The position numbers and the translations under genes are program-made. The notes under the pieces are model-generated. The model searched no databases. It was not told the origin of the DNA and saw only the letters and a program-made list of their open reading frames with translations. Below are positions 5,032 to 62,793 of a stretch of 64,000 bases of DNA, piece by piece. Source of the DNA: Paraburkholderia youngii (GTDB lineage Bacteria; Pseudomonadota; Gammaproteobacteria; Burkholderiales; Burkholderiaceae); the NCBI RefSeq assembly GCF_013366925.1, contig NZ_JAALDK010000002.1, positions 868,001 through 932,000 on the forward strand. Reading direction: 5' to 3'. How positions within the stretch are numbered: position 1 is the stretch's first letter; every line of letters begins with the position of its first letter.

Positions 5032-5042
5032 GAATGCTGTTC
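5032..5042. promoter_or_regulatory. Candidate operator GAATGCTGTTC (one mismatch)
   Basis: One change from GAAC-N3-GTTC. It lies 75 bp (centre to centre) closer to DUF1302 than the perfect copy at 5103-5121 and about 145 bp upstream of the DUF1302 start. Confidence 0.4.
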
Positions 5043-5102
5043 GCAAAGATAAACGCTCGAAACTCGACTGTCAACGCTCGCCCACCCCTACGCGATGCAT
5101 TT

Positions 5103-5121
5103 TTTCGAACGCCGTTCGAAA
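5103..5121. promoter_or_regulatory. Candidate operator, perfect 19-bp palindrome
   Basis: TTTCGAACGCCGTTCGAAA is a perfect palindrome around the core GAAC-GCC-GTTC. It lies about 215 bp upstream of the DUF1302 operon. The same core recurs in promoter regions across the window (22383, 22563, and imperfect copies at 40141, 40329, 44425, 47363, 48524, 57328), which supports binding of a dimeric regulator. Confidence 0.55.
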
Positions 5122-5506
5122 TTCGGGGTAAACGTGGGTTTGCGATTGGTGACGAATTCGAAGCGATGCGCGCATGACCGGAGCACACATCGGTGCCAGA
5201 TGCGTGGCCGAGCGCGTCGCGCAATCGAGATGCCGGCGACGCTTGCATTGACAAGGCATCCGCCTCGCCTGCGAGGAATGGCGATGCAAACCATGGGTGG
5301 CTTCCTGGCAATCCGCGAGAGCGGATCATGAATCGATCTGCAGGCCGTACGCGGTACAGATCAGGGACGAGGTAGTCTTTCGTCTCTCACTTCGCACGCG
5401 AAAGGAGGACGAATCGCGGAAGCAGCCGAAAACGCTTGTGCGATTGGGTCAGTTTCCTTGGCAGTGCATGTATTTATCCTGACCATGAATCGACAAGACA
5501 AATCCC

Positions 5507-5755
5507 TTATCCCGCTCCTGGGCAGGAGTGCATTTCTGGTTTTCGGGGAGGCGGTGGGAACACTCGCCAGGCTCCGTCGTCGTGCCGAAAGAAGAATATC
5601 GCGAGGGACCTCTCCGAGGCAGACGACCGCGCGAGCACACACCTCGTCTGACTCGAATTTGCGAAAGTACATCGGGTTACATGCACCGGTGTGGTCGCAG
5701 TTGGCGCGAGCCACTTTTCGATGAGCGAACGCAAAGAACTTTCTCCAAGCTTCAT
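5507..5755 (-). CDS. Small hypothetical protein (82 aa)
   Basis: The start MKLGESSLRSLIEKWLAP is preceded by AAGGAGCAGGAC, a good ribosome binding site 4-11 nt before ATG. The protein has an N-terminal helix, a basic Cys-containing middle and the stretch LAIFFFRHDDGAWRVFPP. It resembles a family of 75-95 residue hypothetical proteins I recall from Burkholderia genomes (EKWLAP near the start, FFFRHDDG.W.VFPP near the end), but I cannot confirm this without a search. Function unknown. It sits alone inside the regulatory gap. Confidence 0.5.
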   Translation of the reverse strand: MKLGESSLRSLIEKWLAPTATTPVHVTRCTFANSSQTRCVLARSSASERSLAIFFFRHDDGAWRVFPPPPRKPEMHSCPGAG

Positions 5756-5925
5756 GTCCTGCTCCTTCAACCGCCCCGTGTGCGCCGCTGGCAATCACTG
5801 CCACGAACGCAAAGATTGGCGACCTTGACCGGCTCGGCCCGACACCTGCACATCTCCGCTCCGGCTCCGGCACTGCGAGAAAAATCTGGTTCTACCGTAA
5901 TGTGTCGTTTGACTAAATACTAGTA

Positions 5926-6085
5926 GTCAGCCGACCCATTATCAAGCCCAGATGGCACCAGGGGAAATGCTGGTATGGACAAAACCACGCTTCAGTGGAG
6001 TACGATGTGTGACGTAGCAATTAAATGGATGAGACGCCATCTGGAAGTAATTAGTCGATGGACGAATATTTATTCGTCAGCTGAC
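5926..6085. promoter_or_regulatory. Pair of GTCAGCYGAC elements upstream of the TetR gene
   Basis: GTCAGCCGAC at 5926-5935 and the perfect 10-bp palindrome GTCAGCTGAC at 6076-6085 are exactly 150 bp apart, and the 15 bp before each are partly alike (both begin GAC and are AT-rich). The second lies about 140 bp before the TetR start. This could be the TetR autoregulatory site or that of an outside regulator; evidence is pattern only. Confidence 0.25.
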
Positions 6086-6985: not shown

Positions 6986-8215
6986 TCAACGGGCCACGTC
7001 CCAGACAAGAGGCAAGTGGTACAGCGTGCCGTTCACACCTCCGTGGACACCCGCCTTCTCGCCAGGCTTGATCTGGAAATCGGGAATCCGCTTCAGCCAT
7101 TCCTGAAGGAAAACTTTCAACTCCACGCGCGCAAGGAACGAGCCGGGACAACGATGCGCGCCATTGCCGAACGTCGAATGAATCGGCGTGGGCCGCGTGA
7201 AATCCACCGTCAGCGGATCGTCGAACTTTCGCTCGTCCAGACCGTGCAGCGTGGTCGGCATGACGATCATGTCGCCCGCCTTCATCTGCACGCCTTTGTA
7301 TTCGAAGTCGTGTGTGATCCGCCGCCCTTGATTCACCACCGGGAAGCGCCGCAGAAGCTCGTCCACGGCCTTCTGCGTCAGTTCGGGGTTGTCGATCAGC
7401 TGCTTGCGGTGGGCCGGGCTGCCGGCGAGGAATCGCGCGATAAAACCCATTGCCGAGGCAACCGTGTCGAGGCCGCCAATCAGCACGAGGCCGCAAAGCC
7501 CGCGCACTTCATCGTCGGTGAGCGCACGCCCGTCGATCTTCGAATGGACGATCTTGCTGATGAGGTCGTCACCCGGATTCGCGCGGCGCTCCGCGATCTT
7601 CACCCCCAGGTACTGAAAAATCGCGCCGAGCGCCTTGAGCTTCTCGTTGGCATCGACCGGGCGGACCATCTTGTCGGCGAGGCCGAGCAAGTACTCGCGA
7701 TCTTCGGCGGGCAGCGCCACCATGTTCATGAAGATGCCGATTGGCAGATGCTGCGCAAACCCCGATACGAATTCCACTTCGCCCTTGGGATAAAAACCCT
7801 CGATCAGTTCGATCGCCATTTCGCGCGCCTTCTCCTCGAGCTTGCCGATTGCCTGCGGCATGAACGCAGGCGCGATCAGCGCGCGATAGGCGGTGTGCTG
7901 CGGAGGATCGAAGAAGATCGGCGGCAACGGTTGATGCTCGACCAGCGGCACCGTCAGCTGTTTCGACGAGAAATTCTCGTAGTCCTTGAGGATGTGATAG
8001 ATGTCATCGCCGCGCGTCGCGATCCAGTGTCCGCCGTTTCGCGGTGTCCACAGAATGTCGGGAATGCCTTCGGCGTGCAACTGCTTGAGCGACAGATGAT
8101 AGTCGTCCTCGGCACCCGGCGGATTGTAGATATCGATGTCGAACACACGTTCGGGCAATACGTGCGCGGGAATTGGCGCGAGCTCCGGAGCCGCGCCATG
8201 AGCAGCTACTGACAT
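6986..8215 (-). CDS. Cytochrome P450, CYP101 (P450cam)-like
   Basis: 409 residues, start chosen at MSVAAHG with GGAGAC upstream. All P450 landmarks are visible: I-helix GGLDT (247-251, the acid-alcohol pair at D250-T251), ExxR at E286-R289, and the heme loop FGNGAHRCPG with ligand C356. These sit within one residue of the corresponding P450cam positions, and the ending LPLVWD is also P450cam-like. CYP101-type enzymes are soluble monooxygenases that hydroxylate terpenoids such as camphor or ionones with electrons from a ferredoxin/ferredoxin reductase; no such partner genes are in the window. It is the last gene of the 15-gene unit, so an oxidation of a cyclic isoprenoid substrate or intermediate is likely. 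Confidence 0.92.
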   Translation of the reverse strand: MSVAAHGAAPELAPIPAHVLPERVFDIDIYNPPGAEDDYHLSLKQLHAEGIPDILWTPRNGGHWIATRGDDIYHILKDYENFSSKQLTVPLVEHQPLPPIFFDPPQHTAYRALIAPAFMPQAIGKLEEKAREMAIELIEGFYPKGEVEFVSGFAQHLPIGIFMNMVALPAEDREYLLGLADKMVRPVDANEKLKALGAIFQYLGVKIAERRANPGDDLISKIVHSKIDGRALTDDEVRGLCGLVLIGGLDTVASAMGFIARFLAGSPAHRKQLIDNPELTQKAVDELLRRFPVVNQGRRITHDFEYKGVQMKAGDMIVMPTTLHGLDERKFDDPLTVDFTRPTPIHSTFGNGAHRCPGSFLARVELKVFLQEWLKRIPDFQIKPGEKAGVHGGVNGTLYHLPLVWDVAR

Positions 8216-8286
8216 CTGTTGTCTCCTTTTTCGAATCGACCGGTATCGGCGGTCGGGACCATTCTGGGTCGTCGGGCAAACTGCGA

Positions 8287-9420
8287 TTACAGGAACGCGC
8301 CGTACAGTTCGAGATGGTGTTCGGTGTTTCCCCAGGTCATATCGATGCAGGTGAGCCGCTTCACGTACCACCCCACCGCCAGTTCGTCGGTCATGCCCAT
8401 CCCGCCGTGCAGTTGCACCGCTTGCTGTGCCACGAAGCGCGCACTACGGCCGATCAGCGCCTTGGCGGCTGTGACTGCACGATGGGCTTCGCGGTCGTCG
8501 TCCTCGCCGAGCTTGGCGGCGGCAAAGTAGACGATCGATTTCGCCTGCTCTACCGCGGTCAAAATATCGGCGGCGCGATGCTGCAGCGCCTGGAATTTAC
8601 CAATCGGCGAACCGAACTGCTTTCGCGTGCGCAGGTATTCAAAGGTCAGTTCGCTCAACCGCGACATCGCGCCGACCGCTTCCGCGCACAGCGCAAAAAT
8701 GCCTTGATCGACCGCCCACTCGAGCAGTGGGTAGCCCTGATCGACCGCGCCGATGACAGCCTTTGCATCGACGCGCACGTCCTCCAGCACCACCTCGGCG
8801 ACTCGCTGGCCATCGAGTGCGGGAAATCCTCTGACGCGGACGCCTTGGGTTCGCGCATCGACGGCGAAGAGTGTGATGCCGTGCTGATCGGTCTGCTCGC
8901 CCGCGGTACGCGCCGAAACCAGCAGAATGTCCGCACTGTCGCCGTGCAATACGACGCCCTTCCGTCCGTTCAGGACGAACCCGTCACGCGTGGTCTCGGC
9001 CCTCGTCGCAACATTCCACAAATCGAAACGCGCACCGGGTTCGAGCGTCGCCAGCGCGGTCTTCAGGCTGCCGTCGGCGATGCCGGTCAGCAACTCGGCC
9101 TTGCGCGCCTCGTGTCCTGCGCGCCCGATCAGCTTCGCGCCGAGCACCGCGGTCGAAACGAACGGCTCCAATACGAGTCCACGGCCGAAGGCTTCCATCA
9201 CGAGCATGGTCTCGACCGGCCCCGTGCCAAGGCCGCCATGATCCTGCGGCACGTTCAGTGCCAGCACGCCCATTTCAGCCAGCGTAGTCCAGTGCGCAGC
9301 CGACCAGCCCTCGGGCGTAGCGGCGAGACGGCGTCGCGCCTCGAAGTCGTATTCCTTTTCGACGAAACGGCCGACCACGTCGGCCAGCATCTGTTCCTCT
9401 TCAACCAGCGTGAAGTCCAT
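8287..9420 (-). CDS. Acyl-CoA dehydrogenase, small (FadE27/PimD-like) subunit
   Basis: 377 residues of the acyl-CoA dehydrogenase fold: N-terminal helical domain (MDFTLVEEEQMLADVV...), middle beta domain, C-terminal helices with RKQFGSPIGKFQALQHR and LHGGMGMTDELAVGWYVKRL. The ending does not carry the usual YEGT-type catalytic motif. Small proteins like this pair with a larger subunit as heteromers in steroid (FadE/ChsE type) and pimeloyl-CoA (PimC/PimD type) oxidation. Its partner starts 9 bp upstream (9430-10638). The pair would introduce the alpha-beta double bond in a bulky or branched acyl-CoA. Confidence 0.88.
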   Translation of the reverse strand: MDFTLVEEEQMLADVVGRFVEKEYDFEARRRLAATPEGWSAAHWTTLAEMGVLALNVPQDHGGLGTGPVETMLVMEAFGRGLVLEPFVSTAVLGAKLIGRAGHEARKAELLTGIADGSLKTALATLEPGARFDLWNVATRAETTRDGFVLNGRKGVVLHGDSADILLVSARTAGEQTDQHGITLFAVDARTQGVRVRGFPALDGQRVAEVVLEDVRVDAKAVIGAVDQGYPLLEWAVDQGIFALCAEAVGAMSRLSELTFEYLRTRKQFGSPIGKFQALQHRAADILTAVEQAKSIVYFAAAKLGEDDDREAHRAVTAAKALIGRSARFVAQQAVQLHGGMGMTDELAVGWYVKRLTCIDMTWGNTEHHLELYGAFL

Positions 9421-9429
9421 GGCGTGTCC

Positions 9430-10638
9430 TCAGATGCCGAGCGCCTGCTTGGCGATGATGTTTTTCTGCACTTCAGTCGAACCGCCGTAGATCGAAATCT
9501 TGCGCCAGTCCAGGTAGTGCGCGGCCAGCGCGTTGAGCAACTCGCCGTTCGCGGTCTCGCCCTGCCAGTCCGCCTCCAGCGCCTCGCTTACAAAAGGCAC
9601 CGCATAGGGGCCGGCGCACTCCATGATCAGCTCCGTAAGCTCCTGCTGAATCTCCGAACCGCGGATTTTCAGCACCGAAGCCTCCGGTCCGATCGGACGT
9701 CCCGCTGTTTCGGCCGAGACGACGCGCAGCAGCGACCATTCGTGCGCGATCAGATCGATTTCCACCCTGGCGATGCGATCGCGAAAGCGGACGTCCTCGA
9801 TGAGCGGCTTGCCGTGCTTACGCTCGGTGCTGGCAATTTCCTTCAGACGTCGCATGAAACGCTTGCAGTTGCCAAGCCCCGCGATGTTGGTCCGCTCGTG
9901 GCCGAGCAGGTACTTCGCGATCGACCAGCCGCGATGCTCTTCACCGACGAGATTGCTCACCGGCACTTCCACGTTATCGAAAAACACTTCGTTGACGTCG
10001 TGGCCGCCGTCGAGCGTGCGGATCGGTCTGACCGTGATGCCGGGCGTCGACATATCGATCAGCAGGAACGAGATGCCTTCCTGCGGACGGCCGCTGCCAT
10101 CCGTGCGAACCAGGCAGAAAATCCAGTTCGCCCACTGGGCAAACGAAGTCCAGATCTTTTGGCCTTTGACCACGTAGAACGACTGACCGTCGCGCTCGAC
10201 GCGGTCCGCACGCGTCTTGAGCGACGCCAGATCGGAACCCGCCCCCGGCTCGGAGTAACCCTGACACCACCAGTCCTCCATCGAGACGATGCGCGGCAGA
10301 AACCGTTCGCGCTGCGCGTCGGTGCCGAACTTCTGGATCACAGGTCCGACCATCGAAAGGCCAAACGGCATCTGGCGCGGCGCGCCGGCGGTAAAGCATT
10401 CCTCGTCGAAAATGTTGCGCTGCGCGGCATTCCAGGCGGCGCCGCCGAATTGCGCGGGCCATGCAGGTGCGCCCCATCCGTTCCCGGCCAGAATGCGTTG
10501 CCAGCGCACATAGTCTTCGCGCGGCACATGGCGGAAGTTCAGCACCCGTTCACGAATGTCGTCGGGCAAATGCGTCGCTACGAATTCGCGCACCGTGGCG
10601 CGAAATTCCTTGTCGGCGGGACTCTCTTTCAGGTTCAT
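9430..10638 (-). CDS. Acyl-CoA dehydrogenase, large (FadE26/PimC-like) subunit
   Basis: 402 residues. Recognisable features are QGYSEPGAGSDLASL (FAD/substrate loop), GQKIWTSFAQWANWIFCLVRT, an arginine-rich R-E-rich middle, and the ending YGGSTEVQKNIIAKQALGI. It resembles large subunits of heteromeric acyl-CoA dehydrogenases for steroid side chains and dicarboxylic acids. The matching small subunit follows directly. This is the first of three large/small pairs in the window; different chain-shortening rounds may each use their own pair. Confidence 0.88.
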   Translation of the reverse strand: MNLKESPADKEFRATVREFVATHLPDDIRERVLNFRHVPREDYVRWQRILAGNGWGAPAWPAQFGGAAWNAAQRNIFDEECFTAGAPRQMPFGLSMVGPVIQKFGTDAQRERFLPRIVSMEDWWCQGYSEPGAGSDLASLKTRADRVERDGQSFYVVKGQKIWTSFAQWANWIFCLVRTDGSGRPQEGISFLLIDMSTPGITVRPIRTLDGGHDVNEVFFDNVEVPVSNLVGEEHRGWSIAKYLLGHERTNIAGLGNCKRFMRRLKEIASTERKHGKPLIEDVRFRDRIARVEIDLIAHEWSLLRVVSAETAGRPIGPEASVLKIRGSEIQQELTELIMECAGPYAVPFVSEALEADWQGETANGELLNALAAHYLDWRKISIYGGSTEVQKNIIAKQALGI

Positions 10639-10643
10639 TTCAG

Positions 10644-10694
10644 CCTCCCGCCGGGCCGCCCCAAGGGAGGCCGAAGCCCTCCCGGGGGGCCCCG
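10644..10694. repeat. GC-rich intergenic hairpin, REP-like
   Basis: The gap between the MaoC and acyl-CoA dehydrogenase genes holds an imperfect GC-rich dyad: GGGAGGC (10665-10671) can pair with GCCCTCCC (10676-10683) with one bulge, flanked by further C- and G-runs. It looks like the dispersed GC-rich intergenic dyads common in Burkholderiaceae. There is no T tract. Confidence 0.4.
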
Positions 10695-10776
10695 AACAAC
10701 AGTGAGCATGGGGGTCGTTTCATTTCAGGCTCCAGTCGCTGCCCGGCAAAGCACGTCGGCGTTGCCGGGCGCGGAT

Positions 10777-11646
10777 TCAGGCAATTTCCACGATGCCGTT
10801 GTTCAGCACCACCACGTCGCGTGCGTCGACGCGCGCCCGCAAATGCAGGCGTGTGTCACTGTCCCTCCAGAACTGGAAGCGCACTTCTTCGCCGGGATAT
10901 ACCGGCGAAGTCAAGCGCAACGCCAGTCGCTTCAAGCGCGATGCGTCGTTGCCCGCGAACCTGCGAATCGCCGCGTAACCCGCCATACCGTAGGTCGCGA
11001 GGCCGTGAAGAATGGGACGGCTGAAGCCGGCCTTCGACGCTACCTCCGGGTCCGCGTGCAGCGGGTTCGCATCGCCCGAAAGGCGGTAGATCAACGCAGC
11101 ATGGGCACCGGTCGGGAACACATATTCCGCATCGGGCGCACGCTCCGGCACCGCCGGAAGCGCTTCGGGCGGCGCGTCGCTCGCGCCCGACTCGGCGCTG
11201 AACCCGCCGTCGCCACGCAGAAAGGACACCTGCCGGACTTCGGCAAGCTGTTCGCCCGTCGAGGCGTCGATGATGTCGCGCTTGAGTTCGACGATCGCGC
11301 CTTTGCCCGCGCCTTTGTCCGAGATGCGGCTCACCCGCGTCTTGCTGACGATGGTCGCCGCCACCGGCATCGGGCGCACGAAACGCACGTCCTGCTCACC
11401 ATGCACGAGCTTCAGATAGTCGATGCCGGTGCGCGGGTCGCGCATCCACGATTTCGGCCACGCGAACGCGGCCGCGCAGGTCGGCATCGCTTGCAGGTCC
11501 TTTTCGTACACGTAGCGCAGCTGTTCGGTGTCGAGCGGGTCTCCGCCCAGCCCGAGACCCAGCGAATACAGCATCACGTCGCGCTCGCTGTACGTCTGCG
11601 TAACATCCTCGATCGGCCAGTTCTTGACGACTTCGTAGTTCAGCAT
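10777..11646 (-). CDS. MaoC family (R)-specific enoyl-CoA hydratase, double hotdog
   Basis: 289 residues. The N-terminal half is a degenerate hotdog (MLNYEVVKNWPIEDVTQTYSERD...). The C-terminal half carries the hydratase-2 motif YRLSGDANPLHADP, with D192, N194 and H197 as expected catalytic and fold residues, then GFSRPILHGLATYG. The length is that of the hydratase-2 domain of HSD17B4/MFE-2. It hydrates 2-enoyl-CoA to (R)-3-hydroxyacyl-CoA. It sits beside acyl-CoA dehydrogenase pairs and upstream SDR genes that could oxidise the product. Confidence 0.92.
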   Translation of the reverse strand: MLNYEVVKNWPIEDVTQTYSERDVMLYSLGLGLGGDPLDTEQLRYVYEKDLQAMPTCAAAFAWPKSWMRDPRTGIDYLKLVHGEQDVRFVRPMPVAATIVSKTRVSRISDKGAGKGAIVELKRDIIDASTGEQLAEVRQVSFLRGDGGFSAESGASDAPPEALPAVPERAPDAEYVFPTGAHAALIYRLSGDANPLHADPEVASKAGFSRPILHGLATYGMAGYAAIRRFAGNDASRLKRLALRLTSPVYPGEEVRFQFWRDSDTRLHLRARVDARDVVVLNNGIVEIA

Positions 11647-11668
11647 GAGGTGATAGTCCTATGTATGC

Positions 11669-12475
11669 TCAGTGGTCCGTGAAGTTGGGCTTGCGCTTTT
11701 CGAGGAAGCTCGCCATGCCTTCCTTGTAGTCATCGCACTGGTTGGCGATCGGCATGTCCAGTCCGGCGTACATCACCGCCTCGTGGGGCGTCTGGAACGG
11801 CACCTCCCAGACCTGCTCCTTCATGATGCGCATCGAGCGCGGCGAGCAGTACTCGGCCATTTCGCGCGCGTAGGCATAGGTCTCCTCGACGAGCTTGTCG
11901 GCTGGGATTGCCCGATTCACGAGTCCCATCCGTTCGGCTTCACGCCCCTTGATCTTGCGTCCCGACATCAGCAGGTCGAGCGCGTGCGCCTGGCCGACGT
12001 GGCGCGCGAGTATCCAGGCCATGCCGTACTCCGCGGTCAGGCCCCGGCGCGCGAATGCCGTCGTGATGGTGGCGTCTTCCGACGCAAAGCGGATGTCGCA
12101 AAAGAGCGCGTGGATCAGGCCAATGCCGACCGTCGCACCGTTGAGCATCGCTATCACCGGTTTCGGGATGGCCGGATAGTACGAGCAGCGCGTCTGCCAG
12201 TCGGCGCGCTTGCGCATGTCGAACGGGCGCGGCAGCTTCGTCATCAGCGCGGCCGGGTCGCCGCCAAAGCTGTGAATATCGCCGCCCGCGCAAAACGCCT
12301 TGCCAGCACCGGTGAAAACGATGACGCGCACGCCATGATCCGCGCCCGCCGCCTGCATCGCCTCGTACACCTCGGTCGCCACCTGGTCGTTCCAGGTGTT
12401 CATGTGTTCAGGACGGTTCAGCGTAATGGTTGCGATACGGTCCTTGACGTCGTACAGAATGGTCTCGAAGCGCAT
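11669..12475 (-). CDS. Enoyl-CoA hydratase/isomerase (crotonase) family protein
   Basis: 268 residues with crotonase features: ITLNRPEHMNTWN, oxyanion-hole AFCAGGDIHSFGG, and GATVGIGLIHALFCDIRFAS. Neither usual hydratase glutamate is present (Ile and Phe at those places), but a glutamate in GLTAEYGMAW corresponds to the acid used by PaaG-type isomerases. The protein is therefore more likely an isomerase or a specialised hydratase than a standard enoyl-CoA hydratase. The gene is 16 bp downstream of the next acyl-CoA dehydrogenase. Confidence 0.88.
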   Translation of the reverse strand: MRFETILYDVKDRIATITLNRPEHMNTWNDQVATEVYEAMQAAGADHGVRVIVFTGAGKAFCAGGDIHSFGGDPAALMTKLPRPFDMRKRADWQTRCSYYPAIPKPVIAMLNGATVGIGLIHALFCDIRFASEDATITTAFARRGLTAEYGMAWILARHVGQAHALDLLMSGRKIKGREAERMGLVNRAIPADKLVEETYAYAREMAEYCSPRSMRIMKEQVWEVPFQTPHEAVMYAGLDMPIANQCDDYKEGMASFLEKRKPNFTDH

Positions 12476-12491
12476 GAGATCCCTCCAAAGC

Positions 12492-13658
12492 TCAGAATGA
12501 ACGCGGCAGGTCGAGCACGTGCTCGGCGACGTAGGACAGAATCAGGTTCGTCGAAATCGGCGCGACCTGATAGAGACGCGTTTCGCGGAACTTGCGTTCG
12601 ACGTCGTATTCGCAGGCGAACCCGAAACCGCCATGGGTCTGCAGACAGGCATTGGCGGCCTTCCACGAAGCCGTGGCCGCGAGATGCTTCGCCATGTTCG
12701 CTTCCGCGCCGCACGGCTGATGATTGTCGAACAGCTCGCAGGCCTTGTAGCGCATGAGGTCGGCCGCGCGCACGTCGATGTATGACTCGGCAATCGGAAA
12801 CTGAATACCCTGATTCATGCCGATCGGCCGGTCGAACACGATGCGCTCGCTCGCGTACTTCGATGCGCGATCGACGAACCAGTAGCCGTCGCCGATACAC
12901 TCGGCGGCGATCAATGCGCGCTCGGCGTTGAGTCCGTCGAGGATGTACTTGAAACCTTTGCCTTCCTCGCCGATCAGGTTCTCTTCAGAGATTTCCAGAT
13001 TATCGAAGAACAGTTCGTTCGTCTCGTGGTTGACCATGTTCGGAATCGGTCGCACGGTCAGGCCATTGCCGATCGCCTGATGCAGGTCCACGAGGAAGCA
13101 CGACAGCCCATCCGACTTCTTCTTCACGTCCGACAGCGGCGTGGTGCGCGCGAGCAGGATCATCATGTCCGAGTGCTGCACGCGTGATATCCACACCTTC
13201 TGGCCGTTGACCACGTAACGGCCGTCTTTTTTTACAGCGTTGGTCTTCAGCTTTGTCGTGTCCGTTCCGGTGGTCGGCTCGGTCACGGCCATCGATTGCA
13301 GACGCAACTCTCCGCTCGCGATCTTCGGCAGGTATTTGCGCTTTTGCGCTTCCGAGCCATTACGCAGCAGCGTATTCATGTTGTACATCTGGCCGTGGCA
13401 GAACCCGGAGTTGCCGCCGTTGCGGTTGATCTCCTCCATGATCACGGACGCCTCGGTCAACCCGAGGCCGGAACCGCCATACTCCTGGGGAATCAGCGCA
13501 GCCATCCAGCCGGCCTTCGTCAGTGCGTCGACGAAAGCCTCCGGATAGACGCGCTCATGATCGATACGGCGCCAGTACTCGTCCGGGTACTCCTTCGAGA
13601 GGTCACGCAACGCGTCGCGCAGTTCCTGATATTGATCGGGTTTGGAAATTCGGCTCAT
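12492..13658 (-). CDS. Acyl-CoA dehydrogenase, single-subunit type
   Basis: 388 residues; the ATG of MSRISKPDQYQ is used, with GGAA upstream, rather than an earlier in-frame ATG without a good site. Visible features: AALIPQEYGGSGLGLTEASVIMEEI, TEPTTGTDTTKLKTNAVKK, GQKVWISR, and near the end CLQTHGGFGFACEYDVERKFRETRLYQVAPISTN. This is the ordinary homomeric layout, distinct from the large/small pairs around it. It may act on a short or linear intermediate. The catalytic glutamate cannot be placed with confidence by eye. Confidence 0.85.
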   Translation of the reverse strand: MSRISKPDQYQELRDALRDLSKEYPDEYWRRIDHERVYPEAFVDALTKAGWMAALIPQEYGGSGLGLTEASVIMEEINRNGGNSGFCHGQMYNMNTLLRNGSEAQKRKYLPKIASGELRLQSMAVTEPTTGTDTTKLKTNAVKKDGRYVVNGQKVWISRVQHSDMMILLARTTPLSDVKKKSDGLSCFLVDLHQAIGNGLTVRPIPNMVNHETNELFFDNLEISEENLIGEEGKGFKYILDGLNAERALIAAECIGDGYWFVDRASKYASERIVFDRPIGMNQGIQFPIAESYIDVRAADLMRYKACELFDNHQPCGAEANMAKHLAATASWKAANACLQTHGGFGFACEYDVERKFRETRLYQVAPISTNLILSYVAEHVLDLPRSF

Positions 13659-13692
13659 GAATGGATTCCGTTTGCTTGGCTGGACGCGCGGC

Positions 13693-14847
13693 TCACGCTG
13701 CTGCATCGATCAGCCCGCCGGCATTGGCGAGCTGGGTCAGATGATGTTCGGTCGAACCGAACTGGATATCGATCACGCTCAGGCGTCTCAGGTAGTGGCC
13801 GATCTTGCACTCTTCGGTCATCCCGATGCCGCCGTGAAGTTGCACGCCTTGCTGACCGACGAAACGGCCCGAGCGTCCGATCTGCACTTTCGCCGCGGAC
13901 ATACTGCGATCGCGTTCGGCCGCATCCGGCTCCTCGCTCATCATGGTCGCGAACAGCGCCATGCTGCGCGCCTGCTCCACCATGACGAGCATGTCGACCG
14001 CGCGATGCTGGAGCGCCTGAAACGATCCGATAGGCACGCCAAACTGCTTGCGGACCTTCAGATACTCGACCGTTTCTTCGTGCGCGGCGGCCATTGCGCC
14101 CACGGCTTCCGCGCTCACCGCCGCGATGGCGTGCGCAACGACCGTTACGATCAGCGGCAACGCGGCGCCCGCCACGCCCACCACGTCGCTCTCCACAACG
14201 CGCACGCCGGAAAATTCGATGTCTGCCGCACGCAACCGGTCTTGCGTCGGATACGAGTGGCGCGTCACGCCCGCCGCGTCGCCCCTGACCACGAACAGAC
14301 CGATGCCGTCGCGCGCGCGTCTGCCGCCCGACACGCGCGCCGACACCACCAGAAGATCGGCGCTGCCGCCGTGCAGCACCACGCGCTTGGCGCCGTCGAG
14401 CACCCAGCCGTCGGCGTCGCGCCGTGCGGTGGTCGCAACGTCCGCAAGGTCGTAGCGCGACTGCGCCTCGCTGTGGGCGAACGCCATCTGCAGCTCACCC
14501 TGCGCAATCTGCGGCAGAATCGCCGCACGTTGCGCCGCGTTGCCGCCGAGGCGCACGAAGCCGCCGCCCAGCACGACCGTCGCAAGATACGGTTCGACTG
14601 CGAGCCCACGGCCCAACGCCTCCATCACGATCATCGTTTCGACCGGGCCGCAGTTACTGCCGCCGTATTCCTCGTCGAACGAAAGGCCCAGCAGACCCAT
14701 GTCGGCGTAACGCGCCCAGAGCTCCCGGCTGAAACCGTCAGGCTCAGCGAGATACTTCGCGCGCTGCTCGAAGCCGTACTCGTCCTTGACGAGCCGCTCG
14801 ACGCTGTCCTTGAGCATGCGTTGCTCATCGGTGAAATCAAAGTCCAT
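13693..14847 (-). CDS. Acyl-CoA dehydrogenase, small (FadE27/PimD-like) subunit
   Basis: 384 residues starting at MDFDFTDEQRML, 31 bp after the stop of its large partner (14879-16078). It has GLSFDEEYGGSNCGPVETMIVMEALGRG, RKQFGVPIGSFQALQHRAVDML and LHGGIGMTEECKIGHYLRRL, the same plan as the small subunits at 8287 and 35653. Forms the second large/small pair, probably a heterotetramer by analogy with steroid side-chain dehydrogenases. Confidence 0.88.
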   Translation of the reverse strand: MDFDFTDEQRMLKDSVERLVKDEYGFEQRAKYLAEPDGFSRELWARYADMGLLGLSFDEEYGGSNCGPVETMIVMEALGRGLAVEPYLATVVLGGGFVRLGGNAAQRAAILPQIAQGELQMAFAHSEAQSRYDLADVATTARRDADGWVLDGAKRVVLHGGSADLLVVSARVSGGRRARDGIGLFVVRGDAAGVTRHSYPTQDRLRAADIEFSGVRVVESDVVGVAGAALPLIVTVVAHAIAAVSAEAVGAMAAAHEETVEYLKVRKQFGVPIGSFQALQHRAVDMLVMVEQARSMALFATMMSEEPDAAERDRSMSAAKVQIGRSGRFVGQQGVQLHGGIGMTEECKIGHYLRRLSVIDIQFGSTEHHLTQLANAGGLIDAAA

Positions 14848-14878
14848 ATCTGATGCTTCTCCGCAGTTCGCCGGTCGC

Positions 14879-16078
14879 TCAAAGTCCGAGTACGGACTTG
14901 GCGAGAATGTTCTTCTGAATCTCGTTGGAGCCGCCCACGATCGAGACGTGGCGCGCGAAGTAGTGATTCGGCGCGATCGTGAGCCCCCATTCGGGTTCCC
15001 GAACCGGATCGCCAAGCCCGCGCAGGAAGTCGAGATCGAGCGGTAAGGCGTCCGGCCCTGCGACCTCGAGGAGCAATTCAGCCGCGAGTTGCTGCAGTTC
15101 CGAACCCTTGATCTTCAGAATCGAAGTCTTCGGGTCGGGCACGTGGCTGTCCTGCGCGCTGCTTTCGGCGATCACGCGCATCTGCGTCATTTCCAGGGCC
15201 TTCAGCTCCACCTCGACGGCCGCGACACGTTCGCGAAAACGCGGGTCGTCCCACAGCACGCCGTCGCCGCAGGGCACGCGCTTCGCAAGATCCTTCGCAT
15301 GACGCACGCGCATCTTCGAAACGCCCACGCGCGCGATGCCGCTGCGCTCGTTGCCAAGCAGATATTTCGCGTAATCCCAGCCCTTGTTTTCCTCGCCGAT
15401 CCGGTTCGCAACCGGCACGCGCACGTTGTCGAAGAACACCTCGTTGGTTTCATGATGGCCGTCGATCGTGATGATCGGGCGCACGGTCAGGCCAGGTGTC
15501 TTCATGTCGATCAGCAGATACGTGATGCCCTGCTGCTTCTTGCCGCTCAAATCGGTGCGCACGAGACAGAACATCCAGTCGGCGTGATGCGCGGTCGAAG
15601 TCCACAGCTTCTGCCCGTTGATTACGTAGTGGTCGCCGTCGCGGACCGCCTGAGTTCGCAGCGCGGCCAGGTCCGAACCGGCGCCGGGCTCGGAAAACCC
15701 CTGGCAGAACCAGTATTCGAGGCTCGCGATGCGAGGAAGGAAATGGCGCTTCTGCTCTTCGCTGCCGAACGCGATCAAAACCGGACCGATCATGTTCACG
15801 TTGAACGACAGCGTCTCGGGCGCCGGCGCCATGTGCAGCTCTTCCTTGAAGATGTACTGCTGCACCGCGCTCCAGCCCGTCCCGCCCCACGCCTTGTCCC
15901 ACGCGGGAGTCGCCCAGCCGCGCTCGTACAGAATGCGCTGCCAGCGGCGCAGGTCGGCCGCCGAATAACGCTGCCCCAAGGTCGCCTTGCGTCGAATGTC
16001 GGCGGGTAGCGCCTCCTTGAAGAAGGCTCTCACCTCATTGCGGAACGCCAGCTCTTTGTCGGTATATCGCAGATCCAT
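14879..16078 (-). CDS. Acyl-CoA dehydrogenase, large (FadE26/PimC-like) subunit
   Basis: 399 residues with FCQGFSEPGAGSDLAALRTQA, GQKLWTSTAHHADWMFCLVRTDLSG and the ending VGGSNEIQKNILAKSVLGL. This is the large partner of the subunit at 13693-14847, encoded first and separated by 31 bp. Likely substrate class: a bulky alicyclic or branched acyl-CoA. The gene follows the racemase (43 bp), which would supply the (S)-2-methylacyl-CoA that such dehydrogenases need. Confidence 0.88.
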   Translation of the reverse strand: MDLRYTDKELAFRNEVRAFFKEALPADIRRKATLGQRYSAADLRRWQRILYERGWATPAWDKAWGGTGWSAVQQYIFKEELHMAPAPETLSFNVNMIGPVLIAFGSEEQKRHFLPRIASLEYWFCQGFSEPGAGSDLAALRTQAVRDGDHYVINGQKLWTSTAHHADWMFCLVRTDLSGKKQQGITYLLIDMKTPGLTVRPIITIDGHHETNEVFFDNVRVPVANRIGEENKGWDYAKYLLGNERSGIARVGVSKMRVRHAKDLAKRVPCGDGVLWDDPRFRERVAAVEVELKALEMTQMRVIAESSAQDSHVPDPKTSILKIKGSELQQLAAELLLEVAGPDALPLDLDFLRGLGDPVREPEWGLTIAPNHYFARHVSIVGGSNEIQKNILAKSVLGL

Positions 16079-16120
16079 GAGTGTCTCGTTTCGTCTTGAT
16101 GGGTCGCCTGACGGTGCGGA

Positions 16121-17263: not shown

Positions 17264-17266
17264 CGT

Positions 17267-18975: not shown

Positions 18976-18992
18976 CGCATCGCTCCCCGCGC

Positions 18993-57232: not shown

Positions 57233-57327
57233 TCGTCGCATCAGGCGTGAAGACGAGGTTCGTCTTCACGCCGCCACACGCTTTACCTTTCTGAAGCATC
57301 GGCTCAAGCTCCGCTCCCACATTAATT

Positions 57328-57338
57328 GAACATCGTGC
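57328..57338. promoter_or_regulatory. Candidate operator GAACATCGTGC (one mismatch)
   Basis: Identical to the 11-mer at 44425. It lies 135 bp upstream of the NmrA-like gene and its hydrolase-ligase operon, in an AT-rich patch (ATTAATT before, TAATAT after). Confidence 0.45.
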
Positions 57339-57472
57339 TAATATCAGAACGCGTGCTTCGGAGCACGAGGCCGCGCATCTGCAATCACTGTCACCGGGAT
57401 CAGCGGCATCGCGCGCGAACCGTCCAGGCATGACACGCCTGACCTGCGTATCGTTCGACCACGGGACAAGTC

Positions 57473-58390
57473 ATGATCGATTCATCCGACGCGGTACTCG
57501 TCATCGGCGCCACTGGCATGCAAGGCGGTGCCACGGCTCGGCATCTCGTTGCGGCTGGGCGCAAGGTGCGTTTCCTCACGCGAAATCCAGACTCGCCGGC
57601 TGCGCGTGCACTTGTCGAAATGAATGCGCAGGCGCTCCACGGAGATCTGGACGACAGCGAGTCCCTCGAAAAAGCGCTGGAGGGCGTCGGTTCCGTCTTC
57701 TCCGTTCTCCTTCCTGATTTTGATCGCAGCGACAGCGAACGCCGCCAAGGCTTTGCGCTCATCAACGCAGCACGTAACGCGGGCGTCGCGCAGTTCGTTC
57801 ATACCTCGGTGGCGCAGGCGGGCAATCACGAGACGTTTCCCGGCTGGAACGACAAGCGTTGGAACCGAAAATACTGGACGGACAAATGGGACGTCGAAGA
57901 GGCCGTTCGCTCGGCGGGTTTCGAATCGTGGACGGTCTTGCAACCCGCATTCATGATGGACAATCTGGCTGAGCCGAAAGCAGCCGCGATGTTTCCGCAC
58001 CTACGCGAAGGCCTGTTGCTCACCGCATTACTACCCGACGCACGACTCGACTGGATTGCCGCCGACGACGTGGGCGCGCTCGCGACCAGCGCGCTAACCG
58101 ATCCGCAACGCTGGCACGGTCACACCGTGCCGCTGGCGTCCGAAAAGCTCACGATGGCCGAAGTCGCGCAGCGCCTCGCCAACGTAATGGGTGTACAGAT
58201 CAGCGTTTCGCACGTCTCACCGGATGAAGCCAGAGCAAATGGACTCTTACCGGGATGGGTGAATGCACAGGAATGGATCAACGCGGTCGGGTATCGCGTC
58301 GATCTCGATGCGCTTTCCGAACGTGGTGTCCAGCTTACTCCGATGGTGGACTGGATCGATGCGAATCGACAGCGCATCCCACTCGCATAG
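57473..58390 (+). CDS. NmrA-like NAD(P)-binding protein
   Basis: 305 residues from MIDSSDAVLVIGATGMQGGATARHLVAAGRKVRFLTRNPDSPAA, the atypical-SDR Rossmann start of NmrA proteins. FVHTSVAQAG and DWIAADDVGALATSAL are the usual later motifs. No classical YxxxK is seen; members are redox sensors or quinone/isoflavone-type reductases. First gene of an operon with an alpha/beta hydrolase and a CoA ligase. Confidence 0.87.
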   Translation: MIDSSDAVLVIGATGMQGGATARHLVAAGRKVRFLTRNPDSPAARALVEMNAQALHGDLDDSESLEKALEGVGSVFSVLLPDFDRSDSERRQGFALINAARNAGVAQFVHTSVAQAGNHETFPGWNDKRWNRKYWTDKWDVEEAVRSAGFESWTVLQPAFMMDNLAEPKAAAMFPHLREGLLLTALLPDARLDWIAADDVGALATSALTDPQRWHGHTVPLASEKLTMAEVAQRLANVMGVQISVSHVSPDEARANGLLPGWVNAQEWINAVGYRVDLDALSERGVQLTPMVDWIDANRQRIPLA

Positions 58391-58429
58391 GTCGTTGCGA
58401 AGCAATCCTCAGGCAATGGAAAATCCACG

Positions 58430-59278
58430 ATGAATGACCGTGCACCCTCATGGTTCGATGGCGCGATGACGCAGCCGCGTCGATCCCACTTCACCGAAGG
58501 CAGCGGGGTTACCGTGCACTATGTCTCGTGGAATGCCGCAGACACAGCTAAGCCGCCCCTCGTCTTCGCGCACGGTTTTCTCGGGCACGCGCACTGGTGG
58601 GACTTCATTGCGCCGTTCTTCACCGATCGCTTTCGCGTTTTCGCGCTGGATTTCAGCGGCATGGGCGACAGTGCCTACAGGCAGGAATACAGCGCCGACA
58701 TTTTCGTGCGCGACCTCGTCGCCGTCGTGGATGCAATCGGCTCTGGCCCGTGCGTCGTGGTCGGCCACAGCTTTGGCGGATCGCGTCTGCTTCAGGCGTG
58801 CGCGACCTTTCCCGATCGTCTCTCGCATGCAATCGTGCTCGATTCGTATTTCATGCTACGCGACGACAACTTGCCTGCGGTGGAAAGACGGCCGCCGCCA
58901 CGCCCCTATCCGGACTGGCATACCGCCGTCAGTCGGTTTCGACTCATCCCTGAACAAGATTGCGAGCTGTGGCTGCTCGAGCATCTCGCGCAAACATCGC
59001 TTCGTCGAACCGCTGACGGCTGGGTATGGCGCTTCGACCCGAAGCTGCGCGCTCTCCAACCGGTCGAAGGCGAGGAAGACCTGCTGAATCGCATCACAGT
59101 ACCCGTCAGCTATGTTCACGCCGAGTGCAGCAGCGTGGTCAGCGCCGATCGCGCTCGCCGCATCGTGGATGCGATTCCCGGCGCGAAGGGCCCCATCACG
59201 ATGCCACGCGCAGGCCATCACATGATGCTTGACCAGCCACTCGCGCTGGTGAGCCTGCTACGAGCATTGCTGGCATGA
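58430..59278 (+). CDS. Alpha/beta hydrolase
   Basis: 282 residues. FAHGFLGHAHWWD (oxyanion hole HGF), nucleophile elbow GHSFGG, acid region VPVSYVHAECSSVVS and catalytic histidine in RAGHHMMLDQP. Could be an esterase, a C-C hydrolase or a lactonase; located between an NmrA protein and a CoA ligase whose start it overlaps by ATGA, so it may release the free acid that the ligase then activates. Confidence 0.88.
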   Translation: MNDRAPSWFDGAMTQPRRSHFTEGSGVTVHYVSWNAADTAKPPLVFAHGFLGHAHWWDFIAPFFTDRFRVFALDFSGMGDSAYRQEYSADIFVRDLVAVVDAIGSGPCVVVGHSFGGSRLLQACATFPDRLSHAIVLDSYFMLRDDNLPAVERRPPPRPYPDWHTAVSRFRLIPEQDCELWLLEHLAQTSLRRTADGWVWRFDPKLRALQPVEGEEDLLNRITVPVSYVHAECSSVVSADRARRIVDAIPGAKGPITMPRAGHHMMLDQPLALVSLLRALLA

Positions 59279-60858
59279 ACCCCGACATGCGCGATCCGAT
59301 GACAACGCCGTGGTCGACCGAGCTGCCTCTCGCGGCCCTGATTGCGCACGCGGTCGAAAAGCACGGCGCCACTGCGCTGCATTTTCATACCCAGGGCGGT
59401 GCCTACACTTGCACCACCCGGTCCCTGCTGCACGACGCGAAAGAGATAGGCCGGGCGCTGAGAGCCATCGGCCTGCGTCGAGGCGATGTGATCGCGATAC
59501 AACTGCCCACCCAGCGTGAAACTGCGCTGCTGTATCTGGCTGCACTCGAGATCGGTGCGGTGCTCGTGCCAATCGTGCACATCTACGGTCCCGCCGAAGT
59601 CGGCTTCATCCTTCGACAATCGCGCGCCCGATTTCTTTGCGTGCCCGACTTCTGGTCCGGCACCGACTATCTGGAGCGTGTCGCCGCGCTTGGCAACACG
59701 CCTGACCTCGAGCGCGTTATCGTCGTTGGCGATCGGGCACCCTCGAACGGCATCACATTTGACGCGCTGCAACGACTCGCCGCGACAACGCATGATCAGC
59801 GCCCTGTCGACCTGCCAACGTCGGAAGACATCTGCCTGCTGCTGTACACGTCCGGAACGACAGCCTCCCCGAAAGGGGTGCAGCACTCTCATCGCACCGT
59901 AGGCGCAGAGTGGCAGATTCCATTCATCGACGGGCCAGGGCCGTATATGACGCCCTTCCCTGCTGGTCATATTGCAGGCTTCAATTTCCTGTTGCGTCCG
60001 TTCATAACCGGCACCGAGATGGTGTTTATGGACCGATGGGACGCCTCACTTGCCGCGCGACTGGTCGATGAGTACCGCGTGCGCCTTTCTGGCGGCACAC
60101 CGTTCCATCTCCAGGGACTCCTGGAAGCCGCTCGCCGCGACGGGCGCAGTTTGGCGTCCCTCGTGTCTTACGGCCTGGGCGGCACGGGAGTCACGCCAGA
60201 GCACGTCGCGATCGCCGATCAGGCCGGATTCGCCGGAACCCGCGCTTACGGGCTGACCGAGCATTCGACAGTGAGCGTCGGATGGGCCGATTCTCCCTTT
60301 GATATCCGGGCCTGCACGGACGGCCGCATTCAACCCGGCTCGCAGGTGCGCGTCGTCGACGAGTTGGACAGCGACCTGCCTACGGGACGCGACGGTGAGA
60401 TTCTGATCAAGGGACCGGAGTTGTTTGTCGGCTACACCGATCCAGCGCTCAATGCGGCCGCGTTCACGCACGATGGCTGGTTCCGGACCGGCGATATCGG
60501 CCGCGTCGACGAAAGCGGCTGCCTGACCATCACGGATCGCAAGAAAGACATCGTCATTCGCGGGGGAGAAAATATCTCGTCGCTCGAAGTAGAGCGAGTG
60601 CTTGCCACGCACCCGGCCGTGCGCGATGTCGCCGTCGTCGCGCGGCCAGACGCGCGATATGGCGAAAGAGTCTGTGCGGTCGTCGTCTTGCACGAACACA
60701 CCTCGCTCGATCTGAGCGCAGTCCAGACCCACTTTGCCGCTGCGGGTGTGGCGAAGCAAAAGACGCCGGAACACCTTTGCGTGGTTTCAGAACTGCCGCG
60801 CACGGCTTCGGGAAAGGTGAAAAAAGGCGATTTGCGCAAGCAGCTTGTAGCGCAATAG
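59275..60858 (+). CDS. AMP-dependent acyl-CoA synthetase
   Basis: 527 residues. Adenylation motifs LLYTSGTTASPKGVQHSH, GLTEHSTV, GWFRTGDIGRVDESGCLTITDRKKDIVIRGGENISS and the catalytic lysine near PRTASGKVKK. Resembles cyclohexanecarboxylate/fatty-acid CoA ligases (AliA/FadD-type). Second CoA ligase of the window, different in subfamily from that at 38107. Forms CoA thioesters from hydrophobic acids. Confidence 0.9.
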   Translation: MNPDMRDPMTTPWSTELPLAALIAHAVEKHGATALHFHTQGGAYTCTTRSLLHDAKEIGRALRAIGLRRGDVIAIQLPTQRETALLYLAALEIGAVLVPIVHIYGPAEVGFILRQSRARFLCVPDFWSGTDYLERVAALGNTPDLERVIVVGDRAPSNGITFDALQRLAATTHDQRPVDLPTSEDICLLLYTSGTTASPKGVQHSHRTVGAEWQIPFIDGPGPYMTPFPAGHIAGFNFLLRPFITGTEMVFMDRWDASLAARLVDEYRVRLSGGTPFHLQGLLEAARRDGRSLASLVSYGLGGTGVTPEHVAIADQAGFAGTRAYGLTEHSTVSVGWADSPFDIRACTDGRIQPGSQVRVVDELDSDLPTGRDGEILIKGPELFVGYTDPALNAAAFTHDGWFRTGDIGRVDESGCLTITDRKKDIVIRGGENISSLEVERVLATHPAVRDVAVVARPDARYGERVCAVVVLHEHTSLDLSAVQTHFAAAGVAKQKTPEHLCVVSELPRTASGKVKKGDLRKQLVAQ

Positions 60859-60873
60859 TGGGTCGGTCGATGC

Positions 60874-61749
60874 TTATCCAGCGGGGCCGTCGTGGCGAGA
60901 CTTAAAAAACCGATCTCGCTGCCTTGACACCTCATCGGACGAAATAAGCCGGTCATAGATCGCACGCGCCGCGGCCATACCCGCATCGAAATCGGCCGAT
61001 TCGGCCGCGGCGGCGATGGCATTCAGACACTCCCTTTTTACCGCTTCGCTACAGCTGAGGCGTGAGCGCGCCTCGGCAACCACGGAAACCGAATCGCAAT
61101 CGGGCAACGGCAGCCGGCGAATCAACGGCAATGACGTGCTCCCTACCTTCTCACGCGCCAGTTCTATCGCAACGCGCAACAGGTGCTCCTCATCGCCCTC
61201 AACGATCCGGTCGAATAACGCGGTGCCGCGGAACGTTCCTGCGCGCACGATCTGAGCGCCAAGAATGAAATCGATCGACTTTGCGAGGCCCAGCACGCGC
61301 GGCAAACGCTGCGTGCCGGAAAGAGGGATCACGCCGAGCTTGCATTCGGGCAGACCGATCTGCGCACTGTCCGCGACCACACGGTAGTGGCACACCAGCG
61401 CGGTTTCCAGGCCGCCACCAATTGCGAACCCGTGGATGGCGGCTACAACAGGCTTGTCGCTCGCCTCGATCATCGGATGAACATGCATCGACAACGCTGG
61501 CGCAGCGGTTGCAGCAGAAGTGCCGAATTCGCGAATGTCGCCTCCCGCCGAAAAGCCGCGTCCACTGCCGGTAAGCACGATCGCGCGAGCAAGCGCATCG
61601 CGTTGGGCTGCGTCGAACGCGGCGACGAGCCCACGGCGGAGCCTCAGCCCTAGACCGTTGACCGGTGGATGGTCCATCGTGACGATAGCGATGTCGTCTT
61701 CTACACGATACGTTACGTCGGCGAAGCGCTGCGGCTGGCAATGCATCAT
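60874..61749 (-). CDS. Enoyl-CoA hydratase, FadB N-terminal-like
   Basis: 291 residues; two adjacent ATGs (61749 or 61746). DIAIVTMDHPPVNGLGLRLRRGL, RGFSAGGDIREFG, GFAIGGGLETALVCHYRVVADSAQIGLPECKLGVIPLSGTQRLPR. Both hydratase glutamates (GGLET and GLPEC) are present, so unlike most crotonases in this window it should be a true enoyl-CoA hydratase. Follows the AveC-like gene by 42 bp; convergent with the ligase. Confidence 0.9.
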   Translation of the reverse strand: MMHCQPQRFADVTYRVEDDIAIVTMDHPPVNGLGLRLRRGLVAAFDAAQRDALARAIVLTGSGRGFSAGGDIREFGTSAATAAPALSMHVHPMIEASDKPVVAAIHGFAIGGGLETALVCHYRVVADSAQIGLPECKLGVIPLSGTQRLPRVLGLAKSIDFILGAQIVRAGTFRGTALFDRIVEGDEEHLLRVAIELAREKVGSTSLPLIRRLPLPDCDSVSVVAEARSRLSCSEAVKRECLNAIAAAAESADFDAGMAAARAIYDRLISSDEVSRQRDRFFKSRHDGPAG

Positions 61750-61791
61750 CTGTGGTTGGCTGTAGCGTTTGACGAGGCCGGTAATGTGTGG

Positions 61792-62745
61792 CTAGCGGCT
61801 GTTCGCAAGCCAGCTGGGCATGTCTGCTGGCCACGGATCGGCGTACACCGCGTGCACACCCATCGCGGTCGTGTAGGCCAGATTCAGTACGTTGCAAAAC
61901 GCGATGAAAGCCAACACCCGAAGCGCCGCGCGAACCGCTGGATGACAGTCGATACGATCGACGCCTCGCTCGATGGCCGTATGTCCGTTCTTGTCGACGC
62001 TCAGCAGAAGGAAGGCCGACGCCACGAAAGCAGACGGAAACAGCAAAAACTCATAGACCGGAAACTGGTAGTAGTGACCACCCCAGAAAGAAGCGCTCTG
62101 GAACGCACCTGGCCACGCGTCGAACCCCATGAACCGGCTGGCGGCGATGTCGAGCAAGCCCATTGTCATCCAGATCACGGCGAAGCCCGCGAGCGCGAGT
62201 CGCAGGTTGCCGGCACGAGGCCAACGCTTGCGGGTCGCACGCATCGCCCACAACGCCACCACGGCGGTGCCCGTGAAGGTATAGAAGTAGCTTGGCGCGT
62301 CGATCAGAATCGGCTCGGCGATGCGAGCATGCGACGATTGCCAGAACGGAATGAAACGGCACCAGCAGCCGAAGTTCAGCGCATGGGCGTTATAGGTGAA
62401 CATCGGTCGAAGAAAGTCCAACCACGGATCAAGCCAATATGCTGAGAGCCAGCCGACCATCATCAAACGCACCGCGTCGATGCGGCGACTCTTGACGATT
62501 CCGTAGACATACCAGATCGCTACTGGAATCAGGATCAGCACGCTGACCCACTGGTAATGGTCGATCGTCGCTTTCACGGACTCTGGAATCGGATCCGCGC
62601 CCAATTCCACGGGGCGGAAGTCCTCTGAACGAATCCACGCCACATAGGCGCGGATTTGTGCAAAAGCGAAAAGCGCACCGAGCGCTGCCCACGCATACAC
62701 CCTATGCCAGGTTGTGCTGCTGCGCGGGGCGACCATTTCCGACAT
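61792..62745 (-). CDS. Polytopic membrane protein, spirocyclase AveC family-like
   Basis: 317 residues with about six to seven hydrophobic segments (near 16-32, 66-85, 95-110, 150-168, 183-205, 230-250, 275-297). The pattern SAYWLDPWLDFLRPMFTYNAHALNFGCWCRFIPFW resembles the D-P-x-x-N/D...YNxxxxNxGxW region of AveC-like proteins. AveC affects spiroketal formation in avermectin; relatives in mycobacteria and proteobacteria lie in steroid or terpenoid clusters with unknown jobs. The family call is from memory of this pattern. Upstream is a palindrome at 62771-62786. Confidence 0.65.
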   Translation of the reverse strand: MSEMVAPRSSTTWHRVYAWAALGALFAFAQIRAYVAWIRSEDFRPVELGADPIPESVKATIDHYQWVSVLILIPVAIWYVYGIVKSRRIDAVRLMMVGWLSAYWLDPWLDFLRPMFTYNAHALNFGCWCRFIPFWQSSHARIAEPILIDAPSYFYTFTGTAVVALWAMRATRKRWPRAGNLRLALAGFAVIWMTMGLLDIAASRFMGFDAWPGAFQSASFWGGHYYQFPVYEFLLFPSAFVASAFLLLSVDKNGHTAIERGVDRIDCHPAVRAALRVLAFIAFCNVLNLAYTTAMGVHAVYADPWPADMPSWLANSR

Positions 62746-62770
62746 GCGTTGCCTCCTTCATCACGCCGTA

Positions 62771-62793
62771 ATTCACGTATGTGAATGTCGATC
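62771..62793. promoter_or_regulatory. Inverted repeat ATTCAC-GTAT-GTGAAT with overlapping degenerate operator
   Basis: ATTCACGTATGTGAAT (62771-62786) is an inverted repeat with a 4-nt centre. It overlaps GAATGTCGATC (62783-62793), which differs from GAAC-N3-GTTC at two positions. Located 26-48 bp upstream of the AveC-like start, in the 96-bp gap after the kinase-like gene. Confidence 0.35.

Follow-up and report, generated by a model that had tools for sequence, protein, structure and literature searches.

The stretch of DNA analysed here (the window) comprises 64,000 nucleotides of Paraburkholderia youngii, positions 868,001 to 932,000 of contig NZ_JAALDK010000002.1 (assembly GCF_013366925.1). 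The contig is called C2 below, C2:932096 being window position 64096. Gene calling with a codon-usage script placed 60 genes in the window, among them DUF1302 and DUF1329 genes that would serve uptake of a hydrophobic substrate, genes for beta-oxidation, BadH/BadI-like ring opening and CoA ligation, a chemotaxis receptor gene and folE. The original prediction held that a palindrome, GAAC-N3-GTTC, marks most promoters of this island and joins these functions in one regulon. That palindrome is the middle of a 35-bp element, GTTYA-N7-GAAC-N3-GTTC-N7-TRAAC, and this one element does mark the promoters for uptake, beta-oxidation, ring opening, CoA ligation, chemotaxis and folE (Table 1). All 12 sequences listed in the prediction stand at their positions and 11 belong to the element; the outer boxes and the sites outside the window had been missed.

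Four boxes make up the element, GTTY, GAAC, GTTC and RAAC, alternating in direction and starting at -12, 0, +7 and +19. Taken in pairs, they form two GTTY-N8-GAAC dyads with centres 19 nt, or about two helical turns, apart, the inner boxes giving GAAC-N3-GTTC.

The claim that the copies exceed chance fails for the core and stands for the extended element. With at most one mismatch, the core has 35 matches in the window versus 26.8 +/- 5.5 in shuffled sequence, and 8 of 100 shuffles reach 35; we therefore dropped the core palindrome alone as evidence. Perfect cores number 84 in the 9.49-Mb genome, with 60 for the backwards control. The three reported at 5107, 22383 and 22563 are indeed perfect; a fourth at 27844-27854, inside the coding open reading frame 27658-28809, had been overlooked and scores below 7 bits with the 35-bp matrix described below, which is background. 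The same holds for the reported site 46404 (7.9 bits, no counterpart of at least 14 bits in the relatives scanned), which we dropped.

Palindromic expectation maximization was run on 30 upstream segments, site positions not supplied, with 30 dinucleotide shuffles per width as control. At width 13 it recovered 10 of the 11 sites, and at widths 17, 21, 25, 29 and 35 it recovered every one, sitting in a shifted register of the outer dyad at width 25; the outer arms emerged at width 35. None of the 30 shuffles scored as high as the real segments at any of the six widths.

A 35-bp matrix built from the 11 good sites scores them at 22.5-38.4 bits (15.8-34.5 in leave-one-out scoring, LOO) and every other window position below 12. 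A comparison of intergenic with coding density had been proposed: matches of at least 14 bits are all intergenic, 11 versus 0 coding in the window and 14 versus 0 in C2:784001-868000, which is 91% coding by gene calls. One of these 14, at 843837, has its equivalent in the P. sprentiae record within what is annotated as the start of a TetR gene. The exact pattern GTTTA-N7-GAA-N5-TTC occurs five times in the genome, always inside the window (backwards control 2); with one mismatch it occurs 46 times, near the control value of 39. Box spacing is constrained: in 311 cores selected without the arms, GTT[CT] starts at -12 in 53, no other offset from -30 to -4 having more than 7, and [AG]AAC lies at +19 in 58, no other offset from 11 to 35 having more than 8. 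These counts should be read knowing that the cores contain related sequences and that their inner matrix derives from window sites. The extended element, not the core alone, is far beyond chance.

Strong sites run from C2:788925, about 80 kb upstream of the window, to C2:932096, a span of about 143 kb. It holds 24 matches of at least 18 bits: 11 in the window, 12 upstream and one downstream. Just past the window end, an operator at 64096-64130 (C2:932096-932130; 22.9 bits) lies about 129 bp before an ecdysteroid-kinase-like gene, 62842-63984(-). In the 200-kb C2 flanks outside the span, three matches reach 14 bits (14.1-14.4), and twenty stretches of C1 totalling 400 kb hold none of at least 14 bits and three of at least 12. 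The element is thus confined to the island in the DNA scanned. The upstream half was annotated from P. sprentiae WSM5005 plasmid pl1 (NZ_CP017563.2), whose genes were located in the window genome by tblastn; this half encodes two P450s, a GMC oxidoreductase, a ring-hydroxylating dioxygenase, a CoA ligase, a thiolase, a transhydrogenase and an MFS transporter. Because of its DUF1302/DUF1329, MMPL, P450 and BadH/BadI-like proteins, the island would degrade a hydrophobic ring compound.

In our genus sample of 117 genomes (G000, the window genome, counted), twelve further genomes carry the island and keep the sites, in agreement with the conservation in related clusters that the regulon idea had been staked on. 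Eleven of these islands have 10-14 matches of at least 14 bits each, and the split island of G097 has 5+6. Five diverged islands gave 33 site pairs, covering 8 of the 11 sites: identity is 74% over the 35 bp, 86% in the boxes and 32-39% in the flanks; the counterparts were picked by a matrix score of at least 14, which inflates motif identity.

The architecture of the element points to a regulator family. In the available part of Suvorova and Gelfand (2021; PMC8222616), IclR operators fall into group 1, GKTYCRYW3-4RYGRAMC, and group 2, TGRAACAN1-2TGTTYCA; three-box sites alternate in direction, and tandem sites lie 18-22 nt apart, taken as tetramer binding. Compared by eye, the boxes fit the group 1 and group 2 consensus in alternating direction, individual sites varying, and the 19 nt given by the box offsets -12 and +19 falls within the tandem spacing. 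By this comparison, the element reads as a tandem of two group-1 dyads at 19-nt spacing, with a group-2 pair formed by the inner boxes.

An IclR-family gene lies in the upstream half of the island, at C2:820962-821756(-). Judging from sequence, its product very probably reads the element. Its P. sprentiae and window-genome proteins score above cut-off for PF09339 (HTH_IclR) and PF01614 (IclR_C). In the genus sample, 13 genomes have at least three clustered exact sub-pattern matches and G102 has a pair 143 bp apart; among the matches listed, no other genome has two within 100 kb. G008, without an exact match, was found via its IclR, and the matrix then gave nine sites of at least 18 bits in 100 kb. 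The IclR gene is present in all 15 motif-bearing genomes and in 0 of the 102 others. In a family sample of 398 genomes it occurs in ten, and all ten loci have at least one site of at least 14 bits within 3.8 kb, a held-out result. These include G613, of another genus (91% identity), and G796 and G848, of a third (49%). Both G796 and G848 have a pair of sites, at 25-31 bits, roughly 1 kb away from the IclR gene; in G102 the protein is 50% identical and six matches reach 18 bits. In a class sample of 369 genomes, a search at E<=1e-55 returned only the window genome itself.

The DNA-binding part of the protein is little changed: the helix-turn-helix stretch LAEL(N/S)(V/I)ALESPKSSLLNLLRPLVAEG has two variable positions in 26 residues across seven aligned orthologs, and the recognition helix is near-invariant while the most distant orthologs are about 50% identical overall. 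Operators also precede the IclR start, at C2:821798 (18.9 bits) and C2:821886 (25.4 bits), and the regulator gene carries the same operator in G008, G613, G765, G017, G019, G113 and G132. As a negative control, six of 71 BadI-bearing plasmids, IclR-free in the stretch fetched, gave one match of at least 14 bits in about 183 kb. This match, at L180:9579 with 19.0 bits, belongs to a BadI cluster of Cupriavidus that lacks the IclR, and it is unexplained.

Besides the limits on the core counts and on motif identity given above, several points weigh against assigning the element to this protein. The outer boxes are degenerate at several sites, and the matrix scan covered about 0.86 Mb of the 9.49-Mb genome. 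Motif-bearing status rests on an exact sub-pattern able to miss a regulon, and the 102 other genomes were scanned with the pattern only. Protein searches score only those candidates that ranked best at first look, 22 per genome in the case of IclR, and the regulator candidate was chosen after the annotations had been read. The gap upstream of the IclR gene is divergent in the window genome, so its two operators may serve the short-chain dehydrogenase/reductase (SDR) gene opposite. The best NCBIfam match, TIGR02431 (PcaR/PcaU/PobR), gives 139.5 bits, below the cut-off of 284.75. The LysR-type protein encoded at 47451-48350 tracks complete islands equally well (13/13), and a factor present genus-wide outside the island would fit the co-occurrence data too.

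That LysR-type protein was our first choice, for its position and for the T-N11-A in each outer dyad. T-N11-A is the usual spacing of LysR boxes, and a LysR tetramer occupies a pair of adjacent dyads. The gene lies between sites 47363 and 48524 and at E<=1e-70 occurs in every complete island and in 0 of the other 104 sample genomes (13 of the 15 motif-bearing genomes, 0 of the 102 others). However, a search at E<=1e-40 finds nothing in G008 or G848, and all that G102 and G796 have are paralogs of 33-38% identity located on different contigs; all four genomes keep both motif and IclR. We dropped it on these four genomes and consider it an improbable reader.

Still less probable, and about equal to each other, are two further candidates. 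A TetR-type protein of the upstream half (C2:843948-844676) has operators on both sides of its gene, at 843837 (15.6 bits) and 844701 (20.0), and occurs in 12 of the 15 motif-bearing genomes and 0 of the 102 others; it was dropped for lack of a match at E<=1e-40 in G017, G019 and G102, which all keep the motif. Another regulator, for instance one encoded genus-wide outside the island, would suit the co-occurrence pattern as a ubiquitous factor, but it sits poorly with 400 kb of C1 free of matches of at least 14 bits, an exact sub-pattern found nowhere outside the window and an IclR-like box grammar. Least credible is the TetR protein 6227-6886, the reader first proposed: TetR proteins bind palindromes, and it lies within the island with orthologs of at least 84% identity in eight of the 15 motif-bearing genomes, but its homologues (E<=1e-40; 12 of 15) are missing from motif-bearing G008, G102 and G132, which keep the IclR, and occur in 20 of the 102 genomes counted as motif-free, on which grounds we rejected it, and no matrix match of at least 14 bits lies within 1 kb before its own start. 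Separately, a perfect palindrome, GACGAATA-TT-TATTCGTC, stands at 6061-6078 before this gene and might be its own operator; among seven relatives, only G129 keeps part of it.

The IclR protein thus remains the preferred reader, and the two group-1 dyads with their inner group-2 pair are the reason for proposing a tetramer: each operator would be bound by a pair of dimers. In this way the protein would set expression behind about two dozen operators (the 24 of at least 18 bits) over the island, its own promoter included, and the trigger may be an effector derived from the ring compound being degraded. By eye, we saw no shared -35/-10 boxes between operators and starts. As to the sign of control, we lean slightly to a repressor lifted by the effector, because four operators (47363, 48524, 40329 and 62783, named by core start) have their centres 43-60 bp ahead of the start codon, where they would overlie the core promoter; the others lie 86-224 bp upstream, and the nearest named relatives, PcaR, PcaU and PobR, are activators.

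Our searches of open-licence literature listed no description of this regulon. The tandem and three-box operators in the available part of PMC8222616 share with the present element the box sequences, their alternating order, the group-1 and group-2 pairs and the 19-nt dyad centres; here four boxes stand together, and one regulator apparently serves about two dozen operators of one island. A table in that article gives GTTC...GAAC-type operators for the catabolic regulators PcaR, PcaU and PobR; the targets here are ring-degradation and beta-oxidation genes, and the model score is below cut-off. PheR of Sphingobium, as described in the accessible part of PMC13273656, is an IclR-type regulator for breakdown of a hydrophobic ring compound with a 44-bp footprint, but it has the core GCAACG and controls one operon; the likeness drawn here is one of description. 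TtgV of Pseudomonas putida (PDB 2xrn/2xro), cited in PMC8222616 as binding DNA as a tetramer, is a sequence relative of the island IclR (E 1.1e-12). It differs in being an efflux regulator, and the likeness drawn here is one of protein sequence. DitR, likened here by description only, is an IclR-type regulator from the abietane diterpenoid cluster, a terpenoid catabolic cluster that also contains P450s.

These results give a named regulator candidate and a precise operator to a large, so far uncharacterised island of catabolic genes found repeatedly in legume-nodulating and soil Paraburkholderia. The site map indicates which genes belong together and can guide a search for the substrate. About two dozen four-box operators under apparently one local regulator also offer a test system for the two-way pairing of IclR proteins on DNA that has been proposed in the literature.

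Table 1. Putative operators in the window, predicted targets and regulator genes. Operon extents were deduced from gene order; counterparts are counted over the twelve further islands.
Feature	Position	Strand	Bits (LOO)	Counterparts	Remarks
Putative operator	5020..5054		26.9 (22.7)	12/12	Before DUF1302 gene 3191-4888(-); outer box TAAAC on promoter-distal side
Second putative operator of DUF1302 promoter	5095..5129		30.9 (26.5)	7/12	19-bp palindrome; counterpart in none of five diverged islands
Putative operator	22371..22405		30.8	12/12	Before OB-fold/thiolase/beta-oxidation operon 22302(-)
Putative operator	22551..22585		38.4	12/12	Before acyl-CoA dehydrogenase/BadH/BadI operon 22688(+)
Putative operator	40129..40163		29.3	10/12 (not G019, G097)	Before AMP-binding CoA ligase 38107-40041(-)
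Putative operator	40317..40351		33.4	10/12	Before BktB thiolase 40394(+), centre -60
Putative operator	44413..44447		38.0	10/12 (not G030, G097)	Between FabK-like 43359-44336(-) and folE 44527(+)
Putative operator	47351..47385		34.4	12/12	Before SDR 46535-47320(-), centre about -48
Putative operator	48512..48546		32.0	6/12	Before chemotaxis receptor 48583(+), divergent from LysR 47451-48350(-)
Putative operator, weakest accepted	57316..57350		22.5 (15.8)	6/12 (14.6-31.6 bits)	Before NmrA-like 57473(+)
Putative operator	62771..62805		32.5	6/12	Before AveC-like 61792-62745(-)
Predicted target: DUF1302 and two DUF1329 genes	320..4888	-			Pfam
Predicted target: P450, acyl-CoA dehydrogenases, hydratases, thiolase/OB-fold	6986..22302	-			Extent by gene order
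Predicted target: acyl-CoA dehydrogenase, MaoC, CoA transferase, BadH-like, BadI-like	22688..27255	+			
Predicted target: CoA ligase, PimC/PimD-like dehydrogenases, hydratase, SDR, FabK-like	32208..40041	-			Extent inferred
Predicted target: BktB thiolase, MBL-fold hydrolase	40394..43283	+			
Predicted target: FabK-like gene	43359..44336	-			
Predicted target: folE (GTP cyclohydrolase I)	44527..45162	+			
Predicted target: SDR	46535..47320	-			
LysR (AlsR/BenM-like)	47451..48350	-			In all 13 complete islands of the sample; not needed for motif
Predicted target: methyl-accepting chemotaxis protein	48583..50175	+			
Predicted target: NmrA-like, alpha/beta hydrolase, CoA ligase	57473..60858	+			Hydrolase named from P. 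sprentiae record
Predicted target: AveC-like	61792..62745	-			
IclR-family gene	C2:820962-821756	-			About 46 kb upstream of window

One operator, C2:822768, has no called gene behind it. An RNA element follows at C2:822934-823009 (45 kb upstream of the window; L132:3470-3545), found in ten genomes: an invariant unpaired CU-rich UUCUCCUC, a hairpin and then a terminator hairpin with a T run. Its fold z-score is -3.88, and seven of 20 predicted pairs show at least one pair-keeping double change among the ten aligned genomes. A search of Rfam gave nothing at E<=1. The element is similar to double-hairpin RNAs known from B. cenocepacia, as far as the available part of PMC5688073 describes them. 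An operator of 16.4-26.9 bits lies 158-166 bp before it in seven of the ten genomes; G019, G113 and G132 lack one within 300 bp, the best score there being 0.7 bits. The RNA itself was not found in G613, where the operator is present, or in that part of G017 which was fetched. The three RNA genomes without operator, together with G613, weaken the idea that a small RNA driven by an operator belongs to the regulon as a constant component, and because of these absences, that of G017 included, the RNA may be linked to the regulon in one lineage at most.

Tentatively, and with considerable doubt, the whole may be pictured as a single switch: one IclR-type tetramer on four-box operators would govern the roughly 143-kb plasmid- or chromosome-borne island of legume-associated and soil Paraburkholderia, from uptake, ring degradation and chemotaxis to folE and other regulators, and in one lineage also a dedicated double-hairpin small RNA that would adjust host mRNAs on arrival of the substrate.

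Two minor features of the window concern single genes. The two DUF1329 genes share a 300-bp stretch that is 88% identical (321-620 and 1828-2127), probably a duplication. An aldehyde dehydrogenase gene at 51953-53421 lies in two frames, the C-terminal part at 51953-52819 and the N-terminal part at 52882-53421, and is possibly frameshifted.

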